Below are positions 44,633 through 64,000 of a DNA stretch of 64,000 bases, one piece after another. Under the pieces are notes generated by a model. It saw only the letters and a list, made by a program, of their open reading frames with translations, ran no database searches and was not told the DNA's origin. Within the stretch, counting starts at the first letter, position 1. Each line of letters starts with the position of its first letter. The DNA is from Liolophura sinensis (taxonomy: Eukaryota; Mollusca; Polyplacophora; Chitonida; Chitonidae): contig NC_088297.1 of the NCBI RefSeq assembly GCF_032854445.1, positions 27,273,915-27,337,914 of the forward strand, written 5' to 3'. The position numbers and the translations under genes are program-made.

Positions 44633-47380
44633 CAGGGTTTTACCTGGCTGTAATTTTTGTGGGGTCCAATGGACCCCATTCAGAAAAAAAGTGGGGTCCC
44701 ACATACCATAATGGGGGTCCAATGAATTTTTAATATATAAATGACCTATAAAAACACATATATATATATATTAATGACCTTTGTGCTCTGTTTATTTTTT
44801 TCAATGTTACAAAGACTTTTTCTCTATCATGAAAGTCAAACTCTCAATTTATGTTATGATTATCACTTATATAGTCACTGAGTGGCCTTGAGTGACAGTC
44901 TGACTAACTGTACACTGAGAGAACTTATTAATGAGGAAGTCTTTTTTTCATGTCAGTGAAAATTTTGGCTGCTCTGGCAAAGTCAAAGTGCTCCACACTG
45001 CCACCATTCAGTTTGATAAACATCAGCCTGTTTAGACGTTCTGGGGTTATCCGGTTCCTGGATTTGTTCTTGATTGCATTTTGGATGGAAAATCCCCTCT
45101 CACATGGGGCAGAGGAAACTGGAAGCACCAATGCAATTTTGCCATGTAACACAAAGTCAGGAAACTCTTCATTGAACTCTCTGATCAACACTTTCACAAA
45201 AGCTTCAAATGAAAGCACTTGGTATGACTTAACTAAGTGTTTGAACTGTAGAAAGCTAGCTTCCATTCTCTCTTTGTTAACAAGCTCTTGGTAAAACTCT
45301 ACTAACACACCAAACCGCCATAATCTAAGAGGTTAAGGTCACTAGGGTATCGCCCTGGGTTGAACAGGACATCAAAACATTCAAGCTTGTCTAACATGTC
45401 ACTGGGAAACCTGTCATCAAGGTTACTGCTGAGCTTATCCAGGTAGGTATTTCTGATATCATTAAACCTTTGCCTGAGAATGTTATTATCTGTAACATTC
45501 ACATCATGGTACTTGGCGGCCTCTCCTGTTGTTGGCATCTCACCCAAAGCATTGAGGACTTCCGTAACCTTGCTGGACCCTTTTCTCATGTCAGTCAATG
45601 TGTTCTTGGCAGAAGTAACACTGTGTTTGATATGAGAAAGGTTGACGGCATCTTTCTGGAACGTAAGACTTAGAATTCCAATGGCTGTTAAAATGTCAAT
45701 GAGGAGGGCTGTGAACAACAGGAACAATGAATTGCCAATAAATTTCGATAGTCCTACTGCTTTCGGTGATTTTTCCGCATCAAGGGAGAGCATAATGGCA
45801 CAATAACTGTCTAGAATCATTTTCACAGCAGACTCAATAGAAAGCCAACGAACAGATGTGGGTTGCACGATTTGTTTTGCCTTGCCGTTAAGAACAGTTT
45901 GTAGCTGTCTTAGCTTATCGTATCTGACAGAAGAATCCCTGTAAAACTGATAGAGTGAGTGGATCATGGCGTGATAGTTCTTGCAATACTCAATCGACTT
46001 TCCTGCCTGGGATACAGCTAAATTCAAACGGTGAGCCACGCAGTGGATATGGACAATATTCTTATTTCGACGGCCCAGTTTTGCGCCGAGTCCATTGTGA
46101 CGACCAGTCATTACAGCCGCTCCGTCAGTTCCCAGACCAAGGACTTTCTGCATGTCATCCTGGCAAATGTTTTTCCTTTCCAAAACTAAGATAATGGCAG
46201 TTTCAATACCAGCAGCGGTACCGTCTGTTATACGTTCATTGCCTATAAACGACACATGCACTTCTCCATTGTCAATGTATCTAACATAAATGGCATTTTT
46301 TTTTCCACTGATACATCACAGGTCTCGTCCAACATTATGCCAGTGAAGTCACTTGCCTGTAATTTGTCAAGAATGCTTTCCTCCACGACTTGTTCTATAC
46401 ACTCCTCCATATCGGAGACAATTTGCGGCCGTTTGTAGTACTGCTTCACTTTTACACCATTCAAAACTTGCAAGTCCATTAGGTCTCGAAAATTATCAGC
46501 GGCAATGTTATTTTTGGCCATCACAAAAACAGTTCTTAGCTGAATCATTTCGCTGTTCATTTTTTCGTCGTACGTATTTTGGCTGACTTCGCGAACTTTT
46601 TTCATGGCCGCATCTGTGTGAGAGCGCATATGTAAAATCTTTACAGCCTCGATGTGTTGTTTAGAATCTTGATGGCGGGACAATGCGCTGAGTTGATAGT
46701 TACAACAGCCCTGGTTTGTTGCGAAGGAATAGTCAAAATTTGCACTTTTACAAGTGTTACATATCATACCCGAGGCCTGGGATTCGGAGTTGGCCCTACT
46801 CAACCATGGAAATTTCATTTGCCATTCGGTTTGAAACGATCGAGTGCGAGCCCGTTTAGGTGCCGATACCGCGTCTGTTTCAGTGTGTGAAGTTTTTTCA
46901 GCTTCAGCCGGCTCAGGTGATTCAGAATCACGCATGACAACAGTGTGGCTAGACTCGGATCCACCGCCGAAAAACTTTGACAACTTGGACTGTTTGCTCA
47001 TGATTTGCTTTGAATGATAGCCCATTTGCTCAGCGGACCGCTTACACTTTGCAGCGCGTGCCGTGTGCATTGAAGCAGTGCGTCAATTCATTGATCCCCC
47101 TCTAGCAGCATACGTCACAATTGTAGGCCACGCATGCTATTTTTAGCGCTGGATGTGCCATGTTGCTACCGTAGAACACGTGGATGCTGGTTTATGAAAA
47201 TAACTGGATACATGAATTATTTTAGTGACTAAATCAGCTTCCATGGGCACTTGGATGTGGTTGTAAATTTTGGGGGGTTTTTTTGTTGCGTCCCATGGGA
47301 CCCCTGCCGATGCATTTTTTGCGTCCAAGTCAAAAAACACGCGTCAGAGACGCGTGTTTTTTGCGTCCGGTAAATCCCTG
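44633..47380 (-). mobile_element. hAT transposon B, inserted into the coding exon of hAT-A
   Basis: Ends: cagggttttacctggc at 44633 and ccggtaaatccctg ending 47380, imperfect inverted repeats. Direct repeat atatg flanks it (44628-44632, 47381-47385). Near the right end a 14-bp hairpin (47332-47345 with 47349-47362) and near the left end a palindrome 'ggggtccaatggacccc' are sub-terminal structures. It carries a transposase pseudogene on the minus strand. Confidence 0.88.
44928..47070 (-). pseudogene. hAT-B transposase (ZNF862/KIAA1586-like), frameshifted
   Basis: Reads on the minus strand from 47070. N-terminus: basic/Ser-rich, then a zinc finger of TTF/BED type (MICNTCKSANF ... SRHQDSKQH). 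Catalytic landmarks of hAT transposases follow: LDETCD near 46330, GTDGAAVMTG near 46110, CVAHRLNL near 46030, and the C-terminal dimerisation block (SSAPCERGFS) near 45090. The frame breaks twice: at an A9 run (46291-46299 on the + strand) and near 45305-45330. Otherwise the sequence is open, so decay is recent. It would have been about 710 aa. The role was to cut and paste its own DNA; now inactive unless the homopolymer shift is a sequencing error. Confidence 0.85.
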
Positions 47381-49378
47381 ATATGGACGCTTCACACTGT
47401 ACAACATCACCATTCCTACAAATCCAACGAAGGGATTCAAGCTGTTTTCAAAACCGTGTTTCCAGATAGTGAAATTGCGAAACGATTTACATGTGGTGAG
47501 AAGAAAACAGCATATTTGTGTTGTTTTGGACTTGCTCCACATTTCAAATCCTTGTTGGAAAGTCGTGTAAAACAAGAACAATTTGTGCTCTGCTTCGATG
47601 AAAGCCTCAATAAGGTAACAAAGAATGAGCAGCTTGACCTACATGTAAGATTTTGGGACACAAATTGTGTTTCCACTAGATATCTGGGATCACAGTTCTT
47701 GGGCCATACAAATGCTGAAGCCCTACTTGAGAGTGTGTGTGAAGATCTTGAGAGGATGAATCTTTCAAATTTACAACAGGTATCAATGGATGGGCCATCC
47801 GTAAATTGGAAACTTTTTGATATGCTCCAAGACAAGGTTGAAAAAGACACTGGAAACAAATTTCTGAACATTGGCAGTTGTGGACTTCATGTTATCCACG
47901 GTGCCCTGAAAGATGGGTTCTTTAAATCTGACAATGGTGTTCACAATTTCCTTTCATCTTTGTACTGGCTGTTTAAAGATTCCCCTGCACGACGAGAAGA
48001 CTTCTCAAAACTGACAGGTTCCAACACATTTCCGTTGATGTTTTGTAAGCACAGGTGGGTGGAAAATGTCCCTGTTGCTGAAAGAGCATTGGAGATGTTC
48101 GACAATGTGAAAATGTTTGTTAAGGCAGATCAAGACAAAAAAGTGAAAGACCCTGGGACAAAGTCATTTCAAACTGTGCAGGAAGGATGTCAGAATGTTT
48201 TGCTTTATGCAAATATCCATATGTTCCTGACAGTAAGCAAACTGCTGACACCATTCCAGACCATGTATCAAGCAGAAAGACCACTGCTGCCCTTCATGTC
48301 AGATGACCTCTCCTACTTGCTAAAAAGCCTGCTTCAGTCAGTGATCAAAGCAGATGTTCTAAAAGAAATTGATACCCCACTTAAACTAATTAAGCTTGAT
48401 GTAAGAGACAAAAAGCTGTGGAAAGAAGTATCAGCAGTAGATCTTGGGTTTTCAGCAGAAAATGAAGTAAAGCGGTTGCATTCAAAGAAGAAAATTTCAG
48501 ATCGTCAACTCATTGAGCTGCGACAGGGTCACCGTGAAGCATTACTTCGCGTTGTCGAGAAACTTCAAAACAAATCACTATTGAGTTACACTCTTGTTCG
48601 TAACATGAAGTGTTTAGATCCGAGACAGATGGTTCTGGACAAATCTGGCTGTGTAGCAAAGATGAAGAGACTGTTAAAGTGTCTGGTGGACAGTAAGAAA
48701 ATCATTGAGTCAAATTGTGATGATGTGATTAGAGAGTACCAAGAGTTCTTGGATCAAGAAGTTCCAATGGCAGAGGCAAGCTTTAGTGAATTTAATCCAA
48801 AGCTTGATACCCAGAGAGGTGATGTTTTTTTGCATGACCATCTTGCCCACAAAGCCAAAAAGTTATGGCGAGTTGTCAAAAGCCTTCTTATTTTGTCACA
48901 TGGCCAGGCAAGTGTGGAGCAGGGATTCTCTGTGAATAAAGAAGTTGCAACAGACAACTTGCAAGAAAGATCTTTCGTGGCTCAGAGAATAGTCCTTGAT
49001 CACCTCTCAGCAGTTGGTGGTATTTCAGGTGTAAACCTTACAAAGCCTCTAGTGCTTGCTGTAGGTAGTGCAAGGCAGAAGTATATGGCCCACCTAGATG
49101 ATGTGAAAAGACAGAAAGAATCACATAAACAAGCACAGAAAAGAAAGTCAACAATGGACCAGTTAGAGGAATTGAAAATGAAGAAAAGGAGAATCGAACA
49201 GAACATAGCAGGTTTATACAAGTCATCAGAAGAGTTTTCAGAGAGGGCAGAGGCAACAGGGGACATTACCTATGTGGCAAGAGCCAACAGCCTCAGGAGA
49301 AATGCTAAGGAGAAATCCAACAGTATTACAGATATTGACAGAGAAATAGAGGAAATCCTGAAAAATCTTAAGAATTAG
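47381..49378 (+). CDS. hAT-A transposase, main exon, interrupted by hAT-B
   Basis: About 665 codons open to TAA at 49376-49378. Features: acidic catalytic region (FDESLNKVTKNEQLD), MDGPSVNWKLFDML, the CxxH-like SCGLHVIHGALKDGF, the RW motif (HRWVENVP) and a C-terminal hAT dimerisation segment (ILSHGQASVEQGFSVNKEV) followed by a Lys-rich coiled coil. The exon continues 5' on the other side of hAT-B (about 44577-44632) and the two sides agree in frame once the insert and one copy of the 5-bp target repeat are disregarded. An M at 47270 lies in the hAT-B end and is not a real start. Intact apart from the insertion. Confidence 0.83.
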   Translation: MWTLHTVQHHHSYKSNEGIQAVFKTVFPDSEIAKRFTCGEKKTAYLCCFGLAPHFKSLLESRVKQEQFVLCFDESLNKVTKNEQLDLHVRFWDTNCVSTRYLGSQFLGHTNAEALLESVCEDLERMNLSNLQQVSMDGPSVNWKLFDMLQDKVEKDTGNKFLNIGSCGLHVIHGALKDGFFKSDNGVHNFLSSLYWLFKDSPARREDFSKLTGSNTFPLMFCKHRWVENVPVAERALEMFDNVKMFVKADQDKKVKDPGTKSFQTVQEGCQNVLLYANIHMFLTVSKLLTPFQTMYQAERPLLPFMSDDLSYLLKSLLQSVIKADVLKEIDTPLKLIKLDVRDKKLWKEVSAVDLGFSAENEVKRLHSKKKISDRQLIELRQGHREALLRVVEKLQNKSLLSYTLVRNMKCLDPRQMVLDKSGCVAKMKRLLKCLVDSKKIIESNCDDVIREYQEFLDQEVPMAEASFSEFNPKLDTQRGDVFLHDHLAHKAKKLWRVVKSLLILSHGQASVEQGFSVNKEVATDNLQERSFVAQRIVLDHLSAVGGISGVNLTKPLVLAVGSARQKYMAHLDDVKRQKESHKQAQKRKSTMDQLEELKMKKRRIEQNIAGLYKSSEEFSERAEATGDITYVARANSLRRNAKEKSNSITDIDREIEEILKNLKN

Positions 49379-50060: not shown

Positions 50061-50222
50061 TTACAAACAACTTGATGAAATTGGTCTTTAATTTTGGAGA
50101 ATGACAGCCTTAAAAGTCTTTAAAAAGTCTTTAATTTTCATAATACCTAAGGTGTATGAACCCTGTATTAGAGAATCACTGTCAATAGGTATAACGATGA
50201 TGTTGGTATAACAGTGCGTACA

Positions 50223-51246
50223 ATGAAACATCATCAAAAAGCACAAGCACTACGGGAGGAGTTTGAGACGCTCCTAGGTGTGCGGCCCAAGTACCCACGG
50301 TCCCACATTGCCTTGGAAGAACTGCAGGGGATCCTCGACAGGTATAAAACGGCTGTGGCTGAGTTGAAGCGGCTGCAAGACAGCAAGAACTCCCGAAGTA
50401 ACGAGGAGTTGAAGCAAGACGTCAGTAACGAGGAGTTAAAGCAAGACGTTAAGAACCTCCTCAGTAACGAGGAATTGGATGAATTGCTAGGCGAAAAGAA
50501 ACTAGAATTCATTAACACCGGCAGGGTTATAAGGAATCTCCTCCGGGTCTGGCAGATGAATGTACCCGAAGGCGTTTGGACGGACTCAGTAGCCGTCTTA
50601 GAAGAAGTTCGAGCTGTTATTCGCCAGAAGCTAGAAGAAGAGATCCTGGCACTCAACGGGGTTCAATTCCAACTAGGCCTCAGGGTTCAGTTGCGAAAGA
50701 GCAACGCCGATGGCAGTGAAGAGTATACCAGCCCAGTACTACACAACAAACAGGAGGCCCTCTTAGAAGCCGGTGACATTGACGGGGCTCTAGAAAAGGC
50801 CTTCCCCACCATCCAGGAGGTGCTAGAAAAATGGACACAGCGAGGGTCAGGGTGGGTTGTCAATAGCGTGCAAACACTCTGGCTTGACATTGCAAGGTAT
50901 CAGCCACTGAGAGGCGGGTCCTACATCCCCCTACCCGCAGCTGTGAGTAACAAGAAAGCAGTCATCGGTGTGAAGAACAAAGACGACGACTGCCTCCGAT
51001 GGGCACTCCGGTCTACCTTATTTCCAGCCGCCGGGCACCCTCAGAGACCAACAAAGTACCCCACCAATGATGGTCTTGACTTTGGGGGGATCGACACCCC
51101 CACGCCCATCTCTCAGATCCCTAAAGTGGAGTAAAAGAACGACCTCGCCATCAACGTGTTCGGGTGGGACAAGGGCGTGATCGTGCACCGCCTCAGCAAG
51201 AAGCCCGGCGACATGCCGCGAATCAATCTGCTGCTGATTGATCATG
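50223..51246 (+). pseudogene. Polinton family B DNA polymerase, N-terminal piece
   Basis: From ATG 50223 an open frame of about 300 codons. The first 100 are helical and charged, with a 10-residue duplication (two SNEELKQDV units). Then comes a segment with YQPLRGGSYIPLP and KDDDCLRWAL, which I recognise as the region preceding the polymerase in animal Polintons. A TAA at 51132-51134 interrupts it, but the same frame continues (LAINVFGWDKGVIVHRL) to about 51246, where homology stops at an insertion or deletion. Role in life: replication of the element. Now broken. Confidence 0.75.
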
Positions 51247-52075
51247 CAGAAATGTTGATCAACCAGTCAATGCCGTTTTAACTCTGTTGAGGTTGACGGC
51301 CGCTGCCAAACTCCTCACCTCGTTTTTTGACAGCATGATATCGGCTAAGCATCTGCAGGAGAATATTGACTATAAGTATTTTGTTCAGTCTTAACATTGA
51401 AGGCAGTTATACTGAATTTAGTGTCTTTAAAGATATAACTGTGAAGAAACTACTGGTTAACAAAACTTCGCCCTGTTTGTGCAGAAAAAATGTATCTTTG
51501 TATGGCAGAGGAATAGTTTGTTTTCTGTCGGGACACTCACACGAGGGCCGAATGACTGTTTACAAAAATGGCGTCCCGTGGGAAATGCATATCAAAAAGG
51601 TCCATTGCTTTTTGGGAGGACGATTTAAAATCAAATTTTGAATTTACGTTGGATGATGGAGGAGAGAAAGTAGTGGCTGTAACATGCAGTCTGCTTACAT
51701 TTATGATGTTATTTGAGTGCTTCTGTTCCTGATGAATAAATCTGTTGAAATTTTCAACACTGGTTTTAACATCAAACTAAAAACGCAACTTTGTATCATC
51801 AGTTAATAAGGTTTTCTCATATGTTTATCATATGCTGAATTATGGTATTCATTTATTGTGTCCTGTTGCCTGATTGTTAGTTGGCACTTGTGACAAGGGC
51901 TCGCCATCAATAAAAGTCGATTTAGGTTAATTTGTCACCAAACCGTTTGTGTTTAAAGTTTTGATAAATCTAAATATTAAAAGAGTTAAACTGAATTTTA
52001 GTTGTTTCTTACATGTATATACATTTATTTTGAGAATTTTCGTTTTGACTCTTTGGGCTCTCGCAAATGGCAGTA
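51247..52075. other. Foreign segment inside the polymerase gene
   Basis: About 830 bp of AT-rich sequence, unlike its GC-richer surroundings, separates the two polymerase pieces. It holds a 54-codon ORF at 51568-51732 (MASRGKCISKRSIAFWEDD), which could be the first exon of another transposase. No terminal repeats were found. Confidence 0.5.
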
Positions 52076-52133
52076 GTGGGAGTCCACCTGGACTCTCGCG
52101 TCTCCGCACGAAATTCTGACCCTGGAACGCCCC

Positions 52134-54306
52134 GTGGAATACAGAGGCCCTAACGCGACAGAACACTTCCTCAGAGCTCTCCAACAGGAGGAGCGGGAAA
52201 TCAAAAATGTTCTAGCCAACCTTATACCCATGAATATGACTCCCCAGGACTGGCAGGCCCACAACAACGTGTGTGAGAAGCCTCTAGGCGCCGATTCTGT
52301 GCGCGATCACTGCCATATCACCGGCAAGTACAGAGGCGCGGCCCATAACGCATGCAACCTAAAGTTGCGGCTGGGTCCCAAGACAGCCATACCAGTAGTC
52401 TTCCACAACCTACGGGGCTACGACGGGCACCTCCTGATGCAGGCCATAAGTAAGGCGGAGGGCCGCATCTCCTGCATCCCCAACAGCACGGAAAAGTACA
52501 TCTCCTTCTCACTGGGGCAGCTCCGCTTCATCGACAGCATTCAATTCTTACCGACTTCCCTTGACAACCTGGTAGAGGCCAACAAACCGGAGGCTTTCCA
52601 CATCACAGCCCGGTATGAGCCCGCCGAAGAAAAATGAAAGCTGCTCATGCGTAAGGGTGTCTACCCCTGTGAGTATATGGACTCCTGGGAGCGCTTCGAC
52701 GAGTCAAGCCTCCCACCCAAAGAGGCTTTCTACAGTAATCTCAAAGTCAGAGGCATTAGCGATGAAGACTACATCCACGCTCAACAGGTATGGAAGGTAT
52801 TTGACTGCACCAATCTGGGAGACTACACAGACCTTTACTGCCGCACAGACGTGCTCCTGTTGGCCGATGTGTTTGAGGCCTTCCGGAAGACTTGTTTACG
52901 GCAGTATGGATTGGACCCTGCACACTACTTTACGAGCCCAGGTCTCTCGTGGGATGCACTGTTCAAGAAGACCGGGGTAGAGCTGGAGCTGTTGACAGAC
53001 TACAACCAACATCTCTTCATTGAGAAGGGGTTGCGCGGAGGTATCTTCATGGTAAGTAAGCGATACGCCAAAGCCAATAATCCGCAGGTGGAGGGATACA
53101 ACCCAGAAAGTCCAAACAGCTACATCCAATACCTAGACGCCAATACCTTCCAATGGGCGGCTTCCAGTGGGTAGATGACGCACGGCGTCTCGGCGAAACG
53201 ATTGCTACCCACCCCCACGACAGTCCTTCAGGTTACATCCTCGAGGTTGACCTAGAGTATCCGGCCGGCCTACATAACGCACATAACTGGTGGTCCAGAA
53301 GGAGTGGATGTCAGGCTATCAGCACGGCCTTCTCGGTAGGTCTACCGAGGTCGAAAAGCTGGTCCCCAACCTCCGCAACAAGGAACGGTACGTCCTGCAC
53401 TACCGGAACCTACAGCTGTATCTATCTCTAGGAATGCGCCTGACCAAGGTTCACCGGGCCCTGAGATTCGCCCAGAGCCCTTGGATGGAACCCTATATCA
53501 GGATGAACACCAAGCTCCGAAAAACGGCCACGAGTAAATTCGAGAAGGACCTGTACAACTCGGTCTTCGGAAAAATCATGGAGAACCTTCGGAAGCGTGT
53601 GGACGCCAAGCTGGTATGCTCTGGAGAAGACGATAAGATCCGGCGCTTGATAGCCAGCCTGAGCTTCGCACGGGCGAACATATTTGATGATGACCTCGCA
53701 GCGTTTCAGATGCACAAGACCCGTCTAGTCCTAAACCGACCTATCTGCGTGGGCATGAGCATTCTAGATCTCTCCAAGCACCTGATGTACGACTTCTACT
53801 ACAACCACATGAAGGCCCAGTACGGAGAGCGCTGCCAGTTCCTCTACGCTGACACGAATAGTCTGCTACTCGAGATTAAGACTGAGGATGTTTATGAGGA
53901 TATAGCTGAGAATGCAAACCTGTACGACACCTCAGATTACCCACAAGACCACCCCCTGCACAGCGTAGCAAATATGAAGGACAAGTGCGCGGGGCGGCAG
54001 ATCGCCGAATGCATGAATCGTCTGCGCCCCAAGATGTACTCCATTCTGGAGGCAGGTGGAGCCAACATTAAGAAGGCCAAGGGCGTGAAAAACGGAGTTG
54101 TGGAAAAGCGCACCCGCCATAAGCAGTACAAAGAGGCCCTCTTCGAGAAAAAGATCTTCCGACGCAGTATGGACGTGCTGCGATCAGAGCGCCACCATAT
54201 CTATGGGCAGCACCTGAATAAGGTCTCACTGTCCCCCTTCGATAGTAAGCGCTGGATAGCCGAAGATTGTGTCCACACTTTGGCTCATGGCCATGCGCCT
54301 CCTTGA
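52134..54306 (+). pseudogene. Polinton family B DNA polymerase, exonuclease and polymerase domains, broken
   Basis: Protein-primed type family B DNA polymerase. Visible: an HNH-like CEKPLGADSVRDHCH segment; exonuclease motif II (FHNLRGYDGHLL); exonuclease motif III (YCRTDVLLLADVF); polymerase motif B region (NSVFGK); motif C region (YADTNSLLLE). Breaks: TGA at 52635-52637 in frame; frame changes near 53150 and 53285, with motif A cut short after YLDAN; a short loss just before NSVFGK. In motif C the second Asp of the usual DTDS is Asn, so a metal ligand is missing. The gene ends at TGA 54304-54306. Degradation is independent of the nested hAT insertion. Clearly non-functional. Confidence 0.85.
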
Positions 54307-54329
54307 CGGCAGGATGGGACTTTGAGGAA

Positions 54330-54608
54330 CTACCGTAGAAGCCCATCCGGGGGAAGTTGAGTATCAGGAGGCACTATAAGCAACTCCTCATGAACGAATC
54401 CCCATCGCGAACCATCCGACGTATCGTCTACATAGTACAGCACGGGTTCATTAGGCTTTGTGACAGAGCGCCCAAGCCGATATATCTCTAGAGACCAGAC
54501 AGGGTCAGTCGCGCGACGGCGGTCGCCCTCCAACTCTCCAGGCTGATAGAGATAACGAGCGCCAACACCCTCAGGGATCTTCCGCTCATTAAGTACCAGC
54601 GCGGTGTC
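54330..54608 (-). pseudogene. Polinton integrase C-terminus, truncated
   Basis: A minus-strand frame of about 92 codons, with GVGARYLYQPGELEG, DPVWSLEIYRLG, EPVLYYVDD and FVHEELLIVPPDTQLPPDG, then a stop. The W..L...R...(x)n..Y.(V/L).D......F..EEL pattern is the small beta-barrel at the C-terminus of retroviral-type integrases found in Polintons. The catalytic DDE core is absent. It ends 22 bp from the polymerase stop on the opposite strand (convergent). Confidence 0.65.
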
Positions 54609-54978
54609 TTAGCCGCCAAGGCCCTTGATTCGGCCATGCTTACGGCCGGTTTGGGACTAGGGGTTGCAGGTGTGGGACTACTCACAACAATAATTGCAGC
54701 CCCTGCTGTCTTGGATATGGAAGCTGCGGCCATAGCTTGCGGTGTCTTAAATACCGCCGTAAAATTCGTTAGCCGCCGACTTCACGCAAAGGCCAAGAAA
54801 CATAACGATATACGGCTGAGGCTAAACTTAACAGCATCTGTGCGCAGGTATCTACGGCATTATCTGATGGTGTTATTTCGGACGTAGAGTACACGCAAGT
54901 CGTTCAGGAACACCAGAACTACTCTGATCCAAAGCAGGAGACAGTGCTAAGTCTCGTAAGACATTCACCGCCGTAGAG
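54491..54978 (+). pseudogene. Polinton membrane-protein ORF, frameshifted
   Basis: A plus-strand frame with VALQLSRLIEITS, a long Gly/Ala/Leu-rich hydrophobic stretch (TAGLGLGVAGVGLLTTIIAA) and a basic segment (RRLHAKAKKHNDI). Near 54826 homology passes to the next frame (ALSDGVISDVEYTQVVQE), so there is an indel. This resembles a small hydrophobic protein common in animal Polintons whose function I do not know. It overlaps the integrase remnant on the opposite strand for about 118 bp. Confidence 0.55.
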
Positions 54979-55072
54979 ATCGATGAAAGCACGAAAAACA
55001 GCTTATAGATCTCGGCCGAAAACTAGCTCGGCAAGAGCTGAAAAACGCTCTTTCCGAATGATGTTCTGGGCG

Positions 55073-55321
55073 TTAGGGTTGTTGCCTCATTAGCTCGGGG
55101 AACAGCCGGTTTTCATAATACTGCCGGATTGGCTCGGGGTGATCCACCGAAGCGCACACGTCGTTGGTGAAGAGCTTCAGCATGAGCAGCCGGCCCGCAT
55201 TGACGCGTCTGTCTTCAAACATGCTGTGGGTGACTTCTTTGGAGCCTCGCAAGTCTTGCACTGTGCCGACTAACTTCGCCCAAATAGGCTGGCTGGTCGT
55301 TTCCATCGCGGGAGATCCCAT
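55073..55321 (-). CDS. Unknown minus-strand Polinton ORF, 82 aa
   Basis: ATG at 55321, stop at 55073. The sequence (QPIWAKLVGTVQDLRGSKEV, PEPIRQYYENRLFPEL) looks like genuine amphipathic protein, but I recognise no family. It lies just inside the right terminal repeat, where Polintons often carry a small ORF, and may be a fragment. Confidence 0.4.
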   Translation of the reverse strand: MGSPAMETTSQPIWAKLVGTVQDLRGSKEVTHSMFEDRRVNAGRLLMLKLFTNDVCASVDHPEPIRQYYENRLFPELMRQQP

Positions 55322-55387
55322 GATTATTCATTGTATTCGCTGTATACCTAATAAGAAATTTCGATAGCGGCCAGACCCTCCGCTGGG

Positions 55388-55463
55388 GGGGCTGGGGGCC
55401 TCTATTTTGTTCTGGGGAGGGCCCAGGGGGAGGGTGTGCCAGAACTCCTATTCTGTATACTAC
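55388..55463 (-). repeat. Polinton right terminal inverted repeat
   Basis: Reverse complement of 43058-43133, no mismatch over 76 bp, ending 'ttctgtatactac'. Confidence 0.95.
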
Positions 55464-55471
55464 TCGTTCAG

Positions 55472-55930
55472 CGAATTTCAGGGGGAATAACTCTGGGCCG
55501 CTTGTTGACACGACTATAGACGGGGAACAGCCTTTGGCACTGAATGGCTAATCGAAGCCCACCTGTTTAAGTTTGTATAACCGAACACTCACTGAAGTAT
55601 AAACACATGCCATATTTCTTACTATGAATGGTTCAATTTTCGATACATGAGACCCCTAGGTGAACCGCTTTCGCAGTGGCACAGCGAGTGCTACATAACC
55701 GTATGCCTCCAAGTTATTAGCTTATTTTTTTACCTATATGTTGCCTTACACGATTCTGCGGTCATATTCTCTGGATTTGGTGCCTTTTCTATGTAAATTG
55801 GAATAAAACAATAATTATTGGACATCATAGATGGCACTGTATTGCTCTTCTAAGCCCACTCACGTGTGTGGTAAAGTCCAGTTTTCCTACTTTTATTTTG
55901 CAGCAGTGAGACCAGCAACAAGGTGTAAGT
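55472..55930 (+). other. Upstream region of the A1CF-like gene
   Basis: No coding sequence. An acceptor-like 'cttttattttgcag' at 55903 suggests that the start codon exon has an upstream leader exon not identified here. Confidence 0.45.
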
Positions 55931-56332
55931 ATGGCATCCGCGGAGAAGGCTTTGCCGTATCGTGTGACCTGGGCGCCAAACGAAGCCTTGCTGAAACTTA
56001 TGGAAAGAACAGGATACACCATACGGCATAAAAAAGGGCAAAGAAAGTACGGCGGTCCACCTCCCGACTGGGAAAGCCCGCCTCCTTTAAAGGGTTGCGA
56101 ACTTTACATCGGAGGTATTCCAAGAGACTGTTATGAAGACGAGCTTGTTCCAGTATTTGAGAAGATAGGGAAGATTTATGAACTGAAACTCATAATGAGC
56201 TACCTCTCTGGATCCCATAGAGGATATGGATTTGTTATATACACTAACGAAGAACACGCGAATCAAGCGGTAAAGGAGCTTAACAACTACGAAATTCGTA
56301 AAGGCCAGCTCTTGGGTGTTTGCAAATCTGCC
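55931..56332 (+). CDS. A1CF: A1CF-like exon 1: leader and RRM1
   Basis: 134 codons, ATG in 'aagtatggc', donor 'ctgcc|gtaagt', phase 0. Contains [20 protein letters not shown] and RNP1 RGYGFVIY. Confidence 0.92.
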
Positions 56333-59300
56333 GTAAGTCATGTAATTTCCACTATAGAAGCTTTATTGGTTGTCTCTTCGTTGCAAATTAAAACACATTT
56401 AATTGCCAATGTAGACAGCACCAGACGTCGGAAATATTGGTTGGTTAGTTGTAAAATTCACGAGTAGGTATCACAGTCCAAACAAATTTGACCAAATTTG
56501 AATTTATGTAAGCCGTTATTTGAAAAGTTATAATTGAACTAAAGTTTTTTGTATGAAAGGGGTATTTTGTGAGGGTGGATATGTGTAAAATGTTGCGTAA
56601 CTTCTTGAAATTTCTTATCGTCTGCTCTTTCATTTTCTGTCACGAGAAGGTGGTGTGTGCGCGCGCGCGCGCAACATTTCTTACAACAAGTGATTTCTTT
56701 TGTACGGGAGGCTGCGGTAATAATTAATATGGTCACTTATGGCTTAAAAGCACTGATGCATCGTCATCTTGTCCATTAATATTGTGCATATTTGTATGAC
56801 TGGAATAATATTTATGTTGTGCATATTTGTATTACAGAGGAGAGTTTTGCACGTGGGGAACCTTACGTCGAGAATTACAGAAGACAAAATTAGAGAGCTG
56901 TGCAGTCAAGTTGTGGGAAGAGACAATGTTGTGGAAAGAGTAAAGAAGATAAGAGGTTTTGCATTCATTCATTTTAGAGACAGAGATGATGCTATTATGG
57001 CCATGACTAAACTTAATGGTGAGAAAAATTATTTATTTTGGAGTTGTGTTGATTGGTTTTGGATAAATACAAAATGCATTAATGGAAGTATATTTCTTCT
57101 ATCGGTAGGCAAATGTAGTTTTTGTGTGCATTTATAGAGTGTGATATATTTCCATTCTGATAGTTCTGTTTCTGATAAGTAAAAGTTCATTTTCGTTTGT
57201 CAGTCGCATGTGGCACATTATTATTTTTTAACTAGTTTTTCACTTGATTGATGTTTACAGAAAATTACATGATAGAATATCCACCAACATCTAAGGGAGA
57301 GTATTTGGAAAACATGCTAACTCGAGTAATTAAGATGAAACAGTGAATAACTGACACATCGCTTGCCTATAGGATGTTTAATACTCCAACTACGTACAGG
57401 AAGTGGCTCACAATTATGGGACAGACTTATATATATTTACAGAAGAGCACATACAGTATAAATTCACACTTCAAAGCATAAGGTGTGGGCATTCTCTAGA
57501 ATATTTGTTTGGATAAATTTCTGTATAAATTGGATTTTATGTTAGCTTATTATTAACTTAATATCATCCCTCATTCAACATGGATGGGAAGGTCTGACAG
57601 CAACCTGTGAATGGTTGTGGGTTTCCACCAGGCTCTGCCTGGTTTCCTCATGCTATAATGCTGGTCACCGTCGTATAAGTGAAATATTCTTGAGTACAGC
57701 GTAAAAACGCCAATCAATAAATCATTCAGCATGAAAAAAAGCTGTTGAACATTAAATGATCAAATGTTTAAAAGAGGGGAGTTGTTTCAACAGTTACATG
57801 TAATAGGCTGAATATTGAACCCAAGCTCCCAGGACCATTTTGCCAGGAATTTTTTGAGAAAATAAGAAGTTTTCTTGGGAAAAACTCTAGGTAGACTGTA
57901 TCTGGAACACTTTTTAACTGATGTGTAGCATTTGTACTACGTCCTCATTCTTTCAAGAAATAAAACTAAAGGAAGATCAAGGTGAGAAGGCATTATATAA
58001 TAAGTCATATATATTTCTCTCTAGGAATGAATGTTGAAGGCACTTGCATTGAGGTTGTATGGGCAAAAGGAAGAAATCAGGTAAGAAATGATTTGGTCAA
58101 TGTTACTGCCACATCGTGAAAGTCATCTCAAATGTGTAATTCAGGACAGCCCAGCGATCATCCTCTCCCATAGGTTAAGTTTGTCTGTAACATAGTATGT
58201 GAAGTAAACTGTGTTAAGTTGGAAGGGTTCAAATGTTTTCATATTGAGAGTTTGTGGAAGGTATTTGGTCGGGAACCGGGACCTGTCCACATTTTTCCCC
58301 CATCAGCTTTCTTTCACCATTGTAAACTCATCTGTCGTGTATGTGTGAAGTAAGCTTTGCATATAAACACCAAATTATTTATATATATTTATATCTGGTA
58401 AATAATTGAATTTTACTACTGATGAAAATTCTTTATTGCAGGCTAATCAGGACTGTCACTTGGATGAGGTTGATAGAGCATACAACAGAGGCCAGGAAGC
58501 ATTGGAATCTTGGAAGCAGAGAGTATCATATGTCAGGGTAAGAGTTCCTCATATGGTAGGACAGGGGGTTCTGTTATGTCAGGGTAAGAGTTCCTCCTAT
58601 GTTAAGGTAGGGGGTTCTCATATATCTGTAGCGGGTTCTCACATATGTGGGTAGGAGGTTCTCATATGTCAGGGTAAGAGTTCCTCATATGTCAGGGTAG
58701 TGGGCTCTGTTATATCAGGGTAAGAGTTCCTCGTATGTCAGGGTAGTTGGCTCTGTTATGTCAGGGTAAGAGTTCCTCATATGTTAAGGTAGGGGGTTCT
58801 CATATATCTGGGTAGGAGGTTCTCATATGTCAGGGTAAGAGTTCCTCATATGTCAGGGTAGTGGGCTCTGTTATGTCAGGGTAAGAGTTCCTCATATGTT
58901 AAGGTAGGGGGTTCTCATATATCTGGGTAGGAGGTTCTCATATGTCAGGGTAAGAGTTCCTCATATGTCAGGGTAGTGGGCTCTGTTATATCAGGGTAAG
59001 AGTTCCTCGTATGTCAGGGTAGTGGGCTCTGTTATGTCAGGGTAAGAGTTCCTCGTATGTTAAGGTAGGGGGTTCTCGTATACCTGGGTAGGGGGTTCCC
59101 ATATGTCAGGGTAAGAGTTCCTCATATGTTAGGGTAAGGGGTTCTCATATGTCAGCATAAGAGTTTCTGGTATGTAAGCATAGGGGTTTCAGATCCGGTA
59201 TGCAAGGGTAGGGAATGCCACTGATGGCTTATGATGTTGAAATTTTCCAGTGTGTAGTAATATTGAAGGCTCATATGTGTAGTATAGTGCCTTAGCCTTT

Positions 59301-62300
59301 CGGGCAGTGGATTAAAAAAATTATTAGAACTACATGCTAAAAATCTTTTATAATAACTTTTTTAATCGGTGTATAATACTATATTCAAGAATTGTCACAT
59401 TATTCCACCACAATCAGGTTTATGGATGGAGGAAATTGGAGTAAGACCTGGATTTGTACATGAATTTATAGGTCAAGTGGAAGCAAGTCAGCTGTTCAAC
59501 CGTTTGAGCGAATCTGCTTTTATGCATGCTTTGGTTGTATGACAAGTGTACTTGATACTGTGACAAATTTTTCAGGGCTATGGCTATGATTTTGATCCTA
59601 GTTACTCTCCACCATCGTTTTACAACCCGATGTCTCCACCACCCGCAAGGTAAGAACTATTTTGGCCTGAAATCCACAACTCTGTTCACCCAATATAAGA
59701 ATACAGATGAGAATCCAGCACAGCAGATGATCTTGCAGTCAGAAAAGAGTTGTATTCTTGGAATTTTTATAAAAAATCGGTTAGCTTAGAACAATTTTTG
59801 AAGAATTAGGAGCATAGGTTGTCATATTCCACCGTGTGTGTCCAGTTTGTCTTTTTAATATCAGGGTTCTCAGAACTGTCAGATGCTCCGTCATTTGTGT
59901 GCTTCAGACCAGGGACAGGATATTTGTCTTTGGTTTTAAATCATTTCAGTTATGATCATCTAAGATGAAATCTTAGATAACCTAAGATTATATTTTACCT
60001 TATGATTTGTCTGTAATAACTGTAACTGTAAATAAGCATAGGTAAGTGGGTTTTACAAAGTACAGTATTGTAGCTCTCCTGCTGATATGTTAATGGATAC
60101 AGAGTACAGAGTGAGAACTAGAAAAATGACATGGGCAAGTCTACTTTGGAAACTGAAATCCAAAATGAGGTAATGACGGATTTCAGTTGGAAGGTGCTTC
60201 ACAGGGAGCAGAAATATTTGCAAGACTGTGCAAGGCATAGCTTTATTGAAAACAGGCGATTTTATTGAATGGTAGGGGCTTGCTTTTTGCCAAGAATTAA
60301 TATGAACTTCGTACCACCTGTGACCTATATTCTTTAATTGTCACTCTGTAGCTTTCCATTCATCAGCATACATGTAGGAAAGGTACACTACCATATTTAG
60401 TGGTTTTGCCATTGTGGCTGATAGAGTCATTTGACGTGAAAGAAGTTGCATTTATGTGTTATCCATGCGATGTCCTCAAAAAAAAAAACGTTCTATGAAC
60501 TTCTTACATGTAAGTATACAAAGAAGCATTAGGTTTCATCAACCGAACCTTAATAGCTCAATATATTTGATTTTATGTGAACATCTCAGTAGGAAAAGCA
60601 GGAAGAAGAAACTTTAAGAAGGCTCAGTCACATAATTTTTACCATGAAATAGCTTGAATATTTGTGCTTTTTGTACTGTTAGCAGGGGGTTGGCAGAGCA
60701 AGGTCCCATGGGCATCAGAAGCCCTGTGGGAGGCCAAGGGATGATGAGTGGGTGGGGCTTTAGGAAACATCCAGCAGAGGTGTGTATCGTTGTCAATGCA
60801 GAAGGTTTCTGGTCCCATATCCCATTAAAAAGTTGCGCATTGCAACATATTCTGAAGCATGCTTAAAAGGACTATGCAGTCATAAAATCTACAATCTGCC
60901 TACGCCGTACTAAAAGACATGAACCGATTGTGCAATTAACCAGAAGGTGAGTTAGTTCAGTTTCGTTGAAGATGGGTGTTTGTTTAAACTTTGAAGTAAC
61001 AGGTAACATACTTAGAAACTAATTCTTATCTAATATTTCCTATACATGTAATGAGTTTTGAATTAAATTTCGTTAATCAGGTGTGTTAATAGCCAAAAAA
61101 AAATTGGCTGTCTTGTTATCATTGAAAGTTGTCATAATGCAAGGCTCTGTGTTTAACCTTTGACCATGATTTTGTTTTGTGGAAGAATTTTTGTTTTACT
61201 AATTACCTTTAATTTATAGCCTGATTGCCCGAGTGAGGCTTCAGTAAATCAAGAGTGTCAAAAACTGTATGCATGTAACGATGTTCACTATAGGTGCTCG
61301 ATGACCTTTGCCAGAAGAATGGATGGGGAAGTCCTGTATACGAGCTTCAGCCTCCCATGGTAAGGGATGGAAGTGGTGCCCAACAGCTCTTTTTGTACAA
61401 GGTACTACCATAGGTTTCAACAAAATGTTGATAAGAAACTTGTTTGAAGAGATAAGAATCAAGTTTTTTTGCTGGAATGTAACTTTTTTTATACAATTAA
61501 TCATGTCCATGTGTACCAGAAAGAATAAGAAGTAAATTATCTTATAAAAATAAATAAAAATAATTGATCTGACGTAAATCGAAAAAAAAGAATTTCGTGG
61601 TTGTGATTTATACATGTATAAGTGTCATGTATAAGTGTCATGTAGAAGTTGATGTTAGACATTTACATTGGTAATCTATGGTAAAGTACATTTGTCTTTC
61701 AGATCACCATACCAGCTCTCGGTACTCGGTTTCCAAATCCTAACCCATTTACCCCAATTAAACTGTGTTCTACTGTTGAGGAGGCAAAGGTTTTTGCAGC
61801 AGAGTACACTTTGATGCAGTTAGGTGTGCCTCTTGAAGGTAAAGTTAGTGTCCAGAGAAAAAAGGAAAGACAAACAAATGCTTCACAGCCCAAGCTCTAC
61901 CCTTTTTCACTTATGATACATCATTTTATAAGTGGCCATTGTATGCTTTGATTTCTTCTTTCTTTCCTGAACCAGCTTTGCTTCTTGAAAGTTAATTTAA
62001 GAAAGTAAGAGCTATCTCATTTTACATGTTTGTAACAGTATATGAAAAGTATAAAAAAACTTCTTTACTGGATAATATGTAATAAGACATGCTGCAAAAA
62101 CTTAATTGCTGAAAATTACTATTCATAGCTGAGCTGTTTGCCGTTATGTAAGCACTTGTGACATGCATCAGGTATTCTGTGTCTTAGCAACTCGTTTGAA
62201 GAATGAATGGTTAAATACTCACATACATACATGCATGTGGTTACCCAAGTATATTTTGAATGAATATTAGCCAGGAAAGTAACTATTTGCATAACTAGAA

Positions 62301-63498
62301 TTGTCAGAGTTTATTGTTTTGTGCTGCAGCCCTAGAGTACATTGGCCCACCATATCCTTACACCCAGCCCAGCTATGTCACCCACCCCGACCCACCTTCC
62401 AACAGATCATGTGAAAAGCCATGGATGGACCTAAGGTACATGTATATTGATCCGGCACTTCAATCTCTAAGACAATGGATATACATGTATAACTTGTACT
62501 TGATTAGGGCCTGGACACTAAACACCTGCCTAAACACGGCTCGCGTGAGAAAGGTTTGTATTATAATGTGCCATAATAAAGACCGCATATTGACCGGTCA
62601 TGTTTTGTGCTATTAATTGAATGGCTGAAGTATTTGCGTCTTATAATATTGTTATTGATCGCCAAAAGTTTTCAAAACCAAGGTGCGTAAAAGCGGCCTT
62701 GCAGGAAAGTCAAAGCGCCGGAGCGATATCAGTGAGTCGCCAAACTTGGGGTTTAAGAAGCTAATTCGGAGCGAAGCTGTTGTTTCTTCACACACAGAAA
62801 AGTTATCATTTTGTCCAAGTATGTACCGAATAGTTTTGTTTGGTCGATTACATCTTGTGATCCCTGATCATCTGAACTACTGTGTGTAACTGACAGCCGT
62901 GTACATGGGCTTGACAGGCAAACATGACTTTTCACAAGGGTTTAATTCACCCGGCACGGAGAGTCATGTTTCACCAGATTGCTTCTATCTCCTGAAGTCT
63001 CAAAATGGCCACCGTCGTATAAGTGAAATATTCTTGAGTACAGCGTAAAACACCAATCAAATAAATAAATAAATAAATCTCAGAATGGTTTGGATATAAT
63101 GTTCTAGCCATTCTCTTGGTCCGCAGTTGTTTTGCTATGTGGTTTGAATCTTAAAGCACTGATGATAAGGCTCAAACATGTTTAGTATGGAGTGAAACAC
63201 TTAGGACAGTTTTAACAAGGGGAATAAATCTGGGGGTGTAGTATCATGGTAGGATACTATACATAGGAATAGGAATGTCAGAGCTTTAATTCAATCAGGC
63301 GTTACTATATCAATGTAAAATGTTGAACATCTGGACATTGCTTTGGTTACTTAACCAGCTTCAATTTATGTTCTTTCTTATTTCAGTTTAAACATGGCAA
63401 CTTCAAGATATCACTTGTTCGATCCGCCAGAAGAAATTGACTTCCTAGCCGTGTTCCTTGGAGCAGGAGGCGGAACCTGTGAGGACAATGAAAAATAA
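55931..63498 (+). CDS. A1CF: A1CF/RBM46-type RNA-binding protein gene (RRM-RRM-dsRBD), 10 exons
   Basis: A1CF, RBM47 and RBM46 bind mRNA through three RRMs and most carry a C-terminal dsRBD; family members act in RNA editing, stability and germ-cell control. Exons: 55931-56332, 56838-57018, 58025-58080, 58442-58537, 59576-59649, 60686-60779, 61294-61359, 61703-61838, 62330-62435 and a candidate last exon 63387-63498; phases all agree, giving 440 aa. Residues 28-54 are the family leader ([20 protein letters not shown]). RRM1 is at 56-134 ([14 protein letters not shown]) and a second RRM at 135-214 ([13 protein letters not shown]) matches RRM3 of A1CF (VVERVKKIR). The dsRBD at about 302-368 has [14 protein letters not shown] and ITIPAL ... 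[20 protein letters not shown], closest to A1CF. No exon for RRM2 is seen. The final exon is least certain. Confidence 0.88.
56333..56837 (+). other. Intron 1 of A1CF-like gene
   Basis: 505 bp. This is where the RRM2 exons of A1CF relatives would be expected. No RRM-like coding was found. It contains a (GC)n tract at 56657-56672. Confidence 0.7.
56838..57018 (+). CDS. A1CF: A1CF-like exon 2: RRM3-type domain
   Basis: Acceptor 'gtattacag', donor 'aatg|gtgaga', phase 0 in, 1 out. [33 protein letters not shown]. Confidence 0.92.
57261..57346 (+). CDS. A1CF: Possible alternative terminal exon
   Basis: Acceptor 'gatgtttacag' followed by an in-phase (phase 1) 28-codon frame ending TGA at 57344-57346. 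Its use would give a short protein with two RRMs and no dsRBD. No homology is recognised; it may be chance. Confidence 0.25.
57590..57725 (+). mobile_element. SINE family 1, 5' truncated
   Basis: 'gacagcaacctgtgaatggt', 'gctggtcaccgtcgtataag' and 'gaaatattcttgagtacagc', tail 'cgccaatcaataaat'. In intron 2 of the A1CF-like gene. Confidence 0.88.
58025..58080 (+). CDS. A1CF: A1CF-like exon 3
   Basis: Completes the second RRM ([19 protein letters not shown]). Acceptor 'ttctctctag', donor 'aatcag|gtaaga'. Confidence 0.9.
58442..58537 (+). CDS. A1CF: A1CF-like exon 4
   Basis: 32 codons ([20 protein letters not shown]). Acceptor 'tttattgcag', donor 'tgtcagg|gtaaga'. The donor is the first unit of the following array. 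Confidence 0.85.
58538..59175 (+). repeat. 23-bp array starting at the exon 4 splice donor, about 27 copies
   Basis: All units are 23 bp, each starting with GTA and mostly ending in 'tatgtcagg', for example gtaagagttcctcatatgtc + agg and gtagtgggctctgttatgtc + agg. The exon end 'tcatatgtcagg|gtaaga' is therefore repeated many times as a perfect 5' splice site. Confidence 0.95.
59576..59649 (+). CDS. A1CF: A1CF-like exon 5
   Basis: Tyr/Pro-rich ([20 protein letters not shown]), acceptor 'atttttcag', donor 'gcaag|gtaaga', phase 2 out. Confidence 0.88.
60686..60779 (+). CDS. A1CF: A1CF-like exon 6
   Basis: Gly/Met-rich linker ([20 protein letters not shown]). Acceptor 'actgttagcag', donor 'cagag|gtgtgt' (weak). 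The phase fits exactly on both sides. Confidence 0.72.
61294..61359 (+). CDS. A1CF: A1CF-like exon 7: dsRBD start
   Basis: [20 protein letters not shown], a signature of the A1CF dsRBD first helix. Acceptor 'ttcactatag', donor 'ccatg|gtaagg'. Confidence 0.92.
61703..61838 (+). CDS. A1CF: A1CF-like exon 8: dsRBD end
   Basis: [32 protein letters not shown] and [11 protein letters not shown], closely matching A1CF. Acceptor 'gtctttcag', donor 'gaag|gtaaag'. Confidence 0.93.
62330..62435 (+). CDS. A1CF: A1CF-like exon 9
   Basis: Pro/Tyr-rich ([20 protein letters not shown]). Acceptor 'tgtgctgcag', donor 'cctaag|gtacat'. The donor lies in sequence shared with the dispersed repeat at 42424-42580, so this end may be altered by an insertion. 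Confidence 0.75.
62433..62591 (+). mobile_element. Dispersed repeat, copy 2 (plus)
   Basis: About 158 bp matching the reverse complement of 42424-42580. It starts at the edge of A1CF-like exon 9 and supplies or abuts its splice donor. Confidence 0.8.
62592..63386 (+). other. Last intron or spacer, with SINE and possible exon
   Basis: A basic open segment follows 'aaaaccaag' at about 62682 ([20 protein letters not shown]), but its acceptor has a poor pyrimidine tract and the A1CF-like phase would use another frame. It is left unassigned. A SINE fragment lies at 63003-63080. Confidence 0.45.
63003..63080 (+). mobile_element. SINE family 1, 3' end
   Basis: 'aaatggccaccgtcgtataa', 'gaaatattcttgagtacagc' and an (aaat)n tail; only the last 75 bp of the family. 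Confidence 0.85.
63387..63498 (+). CDS. Short exon ahead of the Nanos-Myc ORF: last A1CF-like exon or Nanos N-terminus
   Basis: A strong acceptor 'tcttatttcag' (63376-63386) precedes 'tttaaacatggcaac'. In the phase set by A1CF-like exon 9 it reads [20 protein letters not shown] ... and stops at TAA 63496-63498. The ATG at 63394 has a good initiation context (aaacATGg), so this could instead be the true N-terminus of the Nanos-type protein with a frameshift before 63488. Both readings are open; they overlap the next ORF by 11 bases. Confidence 0.5.
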
Positions 63499-63979
63499 AA
63501 GAATCAAGAGAAAGGTCAATCCTACAAAACACACCTTTTGTGTGTTATGCAAGAATAATGGCGAGATGCTGTCGGTGTATGGTATGCACGTTTTGCAGGA
63601 TGACTCCGGTCGTGTGACATGTCCAATCCTTTGGCGTTACACCTGTCCTATATGTGGGGCAGTCAGGGATAACGCACACACCGTCAAATACTGTCCCAAC
63701 AACGTGAACCGAGAAAGGCAACTAAGGAATTACTTGAAACAAAGCTTCTGGGAATTAAAAGACGCAGTTCCAGCGCTCATACAACAGGAAAGGGTACCAA
63801 GAGTGGTTATATTGAAAAAAGCCACAGACCACATTCATGAATTAACTACGAAGCAAAATGTTATGTTGACAGAACTGCAAATACAGAGAGAGCGAATTAG
63901 CAGCTTATTGGAAAGCTGCGGTTACTACAGTGTTGAAAGCTTGTACATTACCTGTCGTCGTGCCCTTGTGTTCATGTGA
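63488..63979 (+). CDS. nanos: Nanos-type zinc finger fused to Myc-type bHLH-leucine zipper
   Basis: An uninterrupted ORF of 163 aa from ATG 63488 to TGA 63977-63979. After a basic start (KNKRIKRKV), residues 18-69 form a perfect Nanos RNA-binding double zinc finger: C18, C21, H34, C45, then C53, C56, H64, C69, with KNNGE, GRVTCPIL and CPICGAVRDNAHTVKYCP. Three residues later begins a Myc-like bHLHZip: basic/helix 1 (RERQLRNYLKQSFWELKDAV), loop, helix 2 with the Myc hallmark VVILKKAT, then heptads I116, L119, Q123, M126, L130, Q133, I137, L140. In the basic region the Myc Glu and the Arg four residues later are kept, but His is Asn and one Arg is Leu, so E-box binding is doubtful. Nanos represses translation with Pumilio and CCR4-NOT; Myc dimerises with Max. 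I know of no such fusion. The upstream start and any further exons are uncertain. Confidence 0.82.
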   Translation: MKNKRIKRKVNPTKHTFCVLCKNNGEMLSVYGMHVLQDDSGRVTCPILWRYTCPICGAVRDNAHTVKYCPNNVNRERQLRNYLKQSFWELKDAVPALIQQERVPRVVILKKATDHIHELTTKQNVMLTELQIQRERISSLLESCGYYSVESLYITCRRALVFM

Positions 63980-64000
63980 TTGTCATTGCAAGACGGAGAG

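Follow-up and report, generated by a model that had tools for sequence, protein, structure and literature searches.

The 64,000-nucleotide stretch of the Liolophura sinensis genome analysed here (the window, C3:27273915-27337914) carries an open reading frame of 163 amino acids, free of internal stop codons, in which a nanos-type zinc finger adjoins a Myc-type basic helix-loop-helix zipper (bHLHZ). The earlier note had claimed both domains for this single frame, and Pfam agrees, with zf-nanos (PF05741) covering residues 18-71 at an E-value of 2e-22 and HLH covering residues 74-120 at 2.9e-9, each exceeding its curated cut-off; comparison with the PDB gave Nanos at 1.9e-16 and Myc at 4.2e-11, with Max behind at 4.2e-6. 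C1, C7, C11 and C3 are scaffold_1, scaffold_3, scaffold_7 and scaffold_11, respectively, as the assembly paper gives them (PMC11068029); the species, first given as L. japonica, has since been corrected to L. sinensis (PMC12441733). The features of the region, in window positions, are:

54025-64000, no strand assigned: belongs to a segmentally duplicated unit, no shorter than about 12 kb, that occurs three times on C3 at 98.4-98.5% identity and includes the chimera as well as part of an RNA-binding gene of RRM type; the left limit is that of the fetched stretch (megablast)
62590-62999, plus strand: non-coding DNA of the Myc locus, intron side, 81% identical to positions 8490-8944 of the C7 Myc locus (L016+L017; blastn)
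63269-63474, plus strand: the Myc intron end with its splice acceptor (AG, 63385-63386), then the first residues of the Myc coding sequence, 89% identical to Myc-locus positions 9072-9281 (blastn, Myc sequence)
63394-63498, plus strand: frame that opens with the start codon from Myc (MATSR...), at present 34 amino acids long, shifted by a 2-nt deletion (ORF list, alignment)
63475-63713, plus strand: nanos piece of 239 bp, 92% identical to the C1 nanos gene (L028, reverse complement, 2614-2852; blastn, alignment)
63488-63979, plus strand: the reported open reading frame, nanos zinc finger and Myc bHLHZ (Pfam, ORF translation)
63539-63700, plus strand: nanos zinc finger, residues 18-71, with 8 of 8 ligands (Pfam, ligand table)
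63714-64000, plus strand: Myc bHLHZ coding sequence and DNA after the Myc stop codon, running past the window, 87% identical over 63713-64000 (blastn)
63895-63936, plus strand: C-terminal end of the ancestral Myc (N-stop-QLIGKLRLLQC-stop), which a 1-nt deletion has moved to a different frame (tblastn, frames)

The finger spacing C-x2-C-x12-H-x10-C-x7-C-x2-C-x7-H-x4-C, read earlier as exactly that of Nanos, is that of the parental composite, and at the corresponding eight ligand positions the window copy has C/C/H/C/C/C/H/C. Compared with Nanos, the window copy has the complete CCHC-CCHC finger, 92% identical in DNA to the chiton's own nanos piece, but neither the N-terminal region found in the C1 gene nor the C-terminal tail, Myc sequence standing in their place, so that the nanos share is confined to the 239 bp. 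Compared with Myc, to which it is nearer than to Max, it keeps the start region, the helix-loop-helix, the zipper, DNA beyond the stop codon and the intron side, but is without the codons from about 28 to the start of the basic region; HNVL is lost, and the final residues of the zipper end are frameshifted. The intact Myc basic region (HNVLERKRRNDL) is likewise absent, with changes of L to R, K to Q, R to L and D to Y, as the partial degeneracy remarked on earlier had indicated.

The frame is not ancestral throughout. Because of the loss of 2 nt near 63440, the start codon inherited from Myc (63394), which is in frame with the nanos part in two other copies (L006 and L007), no longer shares a frame with the remainder. 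Nearer the 3' end a 1-nt deletion, which the alignments place either at about 63893 or within the A-run near 63913, shifts the end off the Myc frame, so that the last 20 or so residues are not Myc-like. Two early readings were abandoned: a TAG in the Myc frame that seemed to break the Myc end, which hangs on a 1-nt deletion of ambiguous place, and nanos homology upstream of the ATG (PCS...EPV), dropped as far as 63474, where blastn assigns the stretch to Myc.

Parental loci and structure of the joins

Both parents are still in the genome. A genome search with P0024 gave seven matches, six on C3 and one Myc elsewhere; the real Myc, 90% identical to P0024, lies at C7:26248570-26249223. The nanos parent was found as an 80% match within a 274-codon open frame at C1:24540149. 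The copies and the C7 Myc locus agree in splice acceptor and start, MATSRNHLFHRPEECDSFQPCFFEHETDEEF..., after which the C7 locus has a segment containing LPTPPRSP; this segment is missing from the copies, and we take it to be Myc box I, or the transactivation region. Myc-locus positions 9282-11003 (1,722 bp, from about codon 28 to just inside the basic region), and with them the N-terminal transactivation region, have been swapped in the copies for the 239 bp of nanos zinc-finger coding sequence. Both joins are in frame, and the parental pieces joined in the same way give an uninterrupted frame of 181 codons.

The Myc-derived DNA accompanying the window copy includes the intron, the splice acceptor and pieces up to about 2.5 kb past the Myc stop codon; the flanking pieces extend about 2.9 kb beyond the end of the window, and altogether about 5.2 kb of the Myc locus is covered, in pieces, from intron to 3' flank. 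These properties bear on the suggestion in the earlier note that the frame might be a chimeric retrocopy. Template switching during reverse transcription would produce an intronless join such as this one, and chimeras of that kind are reported for a fungus, Magnaporthe (PMC2104539), but Myc intron, splice acceptor and 3' flank are retained here, at 81-92% identity on the two sides of the chimera, which contradicts such an origin and makes it extremely improbable. The tripartite chimeric retropseudogenes of Magnaporthe resemble the chiton sequences in the direct fusion of pieces of different genes and differ in being, reportedly, reverse-transcribed (PMC2104539), whereas the chiton copies keep the Myc intron.

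Seven copies on C3

A genome search with P0001 identified, among the best 150 of 183 candidates, seven loci on C3 (L001-L007): L001 is the window copy, L002 and L003 match at 98%, L006 at 76%, L004 at 72%, L005 at 53% with six TGA codons in frame as read, and L007 at 91% over residues 1-67. The join between the Myc 5' part and nanos is present in all seven; that between nanos and the Myc 3' part is present in five, L006 and L007 having lost it. Five copies (L001-L004 and L006) retain an open hybrid frame, and the Nanos-family CCHC-CCHC finger with exact spacing is complete in L001-L003, each of L004-L007 lacking at least one ligand. In a DNA search with the end of the Myc intron and the first coding part (36 of 36 candidates scored), eight of the 52 matches reach the exon end of the query, namely the real Myc and exactly the seven C3 loci. 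The remaining 44, many of which lie on other scaffolds, do not extend as far as the exon, from which it follows that part of the Myc intron is a dispersed repeat; this part (L016, 8906-9073) has matches on many scaffolds.

The copies are arranged as an inverted pair, an opposite-strand pair and the three-fold segmental duplication, of which L001-L003 are the members; L004 is separated from L005 by about 6 kb and L006 from L007 by about 37 kb, the two members of each pair being on opposite strands. Partial genome duplication has been described for L. sinensis in a comparative study (PMC12005716). The C3 segment seen three times with the chimera also includes the region of an RNA-binding gene (window 55934-61948) whose RRM resembles those of Syncrip, hnRNP R and Dead end; a DND1-type dsRBD is also matched there, weakly and under the curated cut-off.

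Other loci in this genome have the join too, so it is not due to chance. Chimerism of the assembly, which the earlier note had proposed to check, has in its favour only a HiFi coverage of 14x, as stated in the assembly paper (PMC11068029), against which stand a 5' join at seven loci and a 3' join at five, in copies that have diverged independently by up to about 14% in coding DNA; its probability is practically negligible. What the note had proposed thus holds for a real chimera of nanos and Myc origin, and fails for the retrocopy and the assembly error.

The seven loci probably constitute a family of chimeric duplicated (unprocessed) pseudogenes spread by segmental duplication: each half is a genomic copy of a known parent, and intron and flanks have come with it. 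A stretch of the C7 Myc locus, intron and 3' flank included, was copied at the DNA level and has copies on C3, in which 239 bp of nanos stand in place of 1,722 bp of Myc; the replacement was probably a templated repair or a template switch, with two switching points and nanos as the donor. The event is placed on DNA because intron and flank were copied and the Myc parts are genomic, not cDNA; two joins around a short foreign insert that replaces a larger deletion would be the expected trace of templated repair or of replication template switching. Thereafter the chimera spread on C3 by duplication, the window copy being carried, together with part of the RRM gene, by a unit of 12 kb or more, and the copies would be decaying without detectable protein constraint, the reading frame presumably being a stretch so far uninterrupted. 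Like other chimeric duplicated pseudogenes, these are DNA-level copies with an intron, parts of two genes, a segmental duplication and several lesions; they are unlike them in having two in-frame joins and a hybrid frame that is still open in five of seven copies. They thus form a multi-copy record of two unrelated regulators joined in frame at the DNA level.

Lesions and substitutions in the copies

Scored against the parental composite, disabling lesions are present in all seven copies. L001-L003 each have the 2-nt and 1-nt deletions within the frame and a further 1-nt loss in an A-run at the stop, with all eight ligands kept; read errors at a single site are an unlikely source of these lesions, which are present at three separate loci. 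In L004, ATT replaces ATG and two ligand cysteines have become tyrosine; L005 also starts with ATT, is interrupted by a stop at codon 111, has three indels (3, 1 and 9 nt) and lacks two cysteines; in L006 two in-frame deletions, of 33 and 42 nt, have taken out ligands together with the nanos/Myc join; and from L007 the Myc 3' part and the final ligand are missing. Four of seven indel events within the coding span preserve the frame; the 1 nt missing from the A-run at the stop codon in L001-L003 and the 250 nt missing from L007 are left out of this count.

The substitution pattern across the copies looks unconstrained, or neutral, overall. Pairwise dN/dS among the copies and the composite is 0.52-1.66, with two exceptions: L006-L007 (2.81, over 86 codons) and L001-L002 (undefined, with zero synonymous changes). 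Clade-specific changes number 74 nonsynonymous and 18 synonymous (approximate counts, some nonsynonymous codons being mixed states or frameshift edges), compared with 68.5 of 92 expected to be nonsynonymous without selection (P of 74 or fewer, 0.93); this sum omits the changes shared by L004 and L006 (4 and 2) and those of the stem of L001-L003 with L007 (7 and 0, partly overlapping). Maximum likelihood with free omega and kappa gained 2.1 lnL over fixed values with the parent included and 1.5 without it. At sites conserved in the respective families, the window copy has 3 changes among 30 sites of the nanos half, for which 27 of 28 nanos rows were usable, and 10 among 29 sites of the Myc half, for which the 41 rows containing ILKKA were taken from the 120 listed. 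Three of these 10 changes fall on the junction or in the frameshifted end. In no family member do more than 4 of about 30 conserved sites differ.

Rates in coding and flanking DNA fit plain neutrality imperfectly, in either direction. Coding divergence of L002 from L004, L005 and L006 (0.109-0.136) exceeds that of the 3-kb flanks (0.064-0.086; p 0.001-0.005), as in L002-L006 (0.109 versus 0.064, p 0.001), whereas that of L004-L006 is lower than in the flanks (0.053 versus 0.097, p 0.002), and L004-L005 and L005-L006 have no significant difference between coding DNA and 3-kb flanks. With CpG-prone sites removed, the excess remains for L001-L004 (p 0.008), L002-L006 (0.0015) and L002-L005 (0.016) and loses significance for L002-L004 (p 0.10), for which reason positive selection in the three-copy lineage is not claimed. 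CpG decay accounts for part of these differences, and exchange between copies could be the source of the rest. L004 is closer to the parental composite in coding DNA (0.070) than in flanks (0.111, p 0.017), which constraint on the parents can explain.

The slow coding DNA of L004-L006, together with the in-frame joins, the frames open in five of seven copies and the in-frame deletions of L006, is what a hybrid that worked for a while after its origin and later decayed in all lineages might have left. On the trunk, the count is 11 nonsynonymous to 4 synonymous changes, the neutral ratio, and this history seems unlikely.

The three-copy lineage, with its eight ligands, its coding DNA faster than the flanks and helix 2 (VVILKKATDHIHEL) intact except for one E to D in L002, may instead contain a young working gene. 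Translation would begin at 63488, a methionine within the nanos piece, and the putative zinc-finger/bHLHZ peptide would pair with Max, bind E-boxes poorly, and titrate Max or bring the RNA-binding finger to it. The predicted structure of the window protein has helices at residues 70-93 and 105-143, with block pLDDT of 93-98 over residues 81-140, and the modelled zipper half could still fold, although this would not show that it is used; block pLDDT is 57-80 over the zinc finger, where the alignment is shallow. The frame from the Myc-derived start codon ends after 34 codons, the basic region is altered at the four residues given above, and the twins L001-L003 differ by 2-5 nonsynonymous and 0-1 synonymous changes. 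The stem of the lineage has 27 nonsynonymous and 5 synonymous changes, a ratio indistinguishable from neutral (P 0.136). We consider such a gene quite unlikely, and it is decidedly doubtful that the group would be a new, fast-evolving germline gene that unites a Nanos RNA-binding finger with a Max-pairing Myc zipper and a weakened basic region under selection for change, although, judging from sequence, a translated finger/bHLHZ peptide in L001-L003 is possible. The earlier proposal of a working Max-binding or dominant-negative protein thus found no positive support, given lesions in all seven copies and substitutions neutral overall, and the decaying pseudogene family is preferred.

Searches for related proteins and other features of the genome

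In a protein search with the frame, none of 29 matches, 21 of them inspected as sequences, covers both halves (coverage at most 60%), an absence that weighs little because the candidates were limited to about 90-285 amino acids and the C1 nanos gene itself was not matched; 28 of the matches have a nanos domain and one (P0024) a Myc HLH. A protein search with the Myc region scored none of its 19 candidates, missing even P0024, and carries no weight; viral contigs gave five pattern matches and no relatives. Among the papers listed, judging from titles and the beginnings of abstracts, none concerns a nanos-Myc fusion; on nanos in chitons a single paper was listed, and on nanos arrays in molluscs none; the word 'nanos' does not occur in the main text of the L. 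sinensis assembly paper (PMC11068029), nor 'nanos' or 'Myc' in the main text of the chiton genome comparison (PMC12005716). If transcribed, the frame would give a Nanos-Myc hybrid regulator, a combination not found within the proteins and literature searched; if not, it is a warning that an unmistakable two-domain frame in raw genome sequence can be a fossil.

Elsewhere in the genome, C11:17950666-18196940 (L029-L040) holds a giant tandem array of nanos type, 246 kb on the minus strand, with at least 138 matches (150 listed, the best of 183 candidates, minus 7 on C3 and 5 on C1). Within the 90 kb examined, 42 of 58 tblastn matches are full-length frames of 194 amino acids without stop or gap, 97.4-100% identical to one copy and mostly 1,672-1,673 bp apart. 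A cluster of four nanos-type matches at 65-67% lies at C1:59619530-59646359 and perhaps corresponds to annotated L. sinensis genes (LOC1354627xx). The window itself also contains long open reading frames resembling transposon genes (44928-49378 and 50172-54306), perhaps of a hAT-like and a Maverick/polB-like element, and minisatellite arrays with units of 41-83 bp at 227-1497, 11176-12493, 16746-18727 and 34731-36750, with further arrays elsewhere in it.
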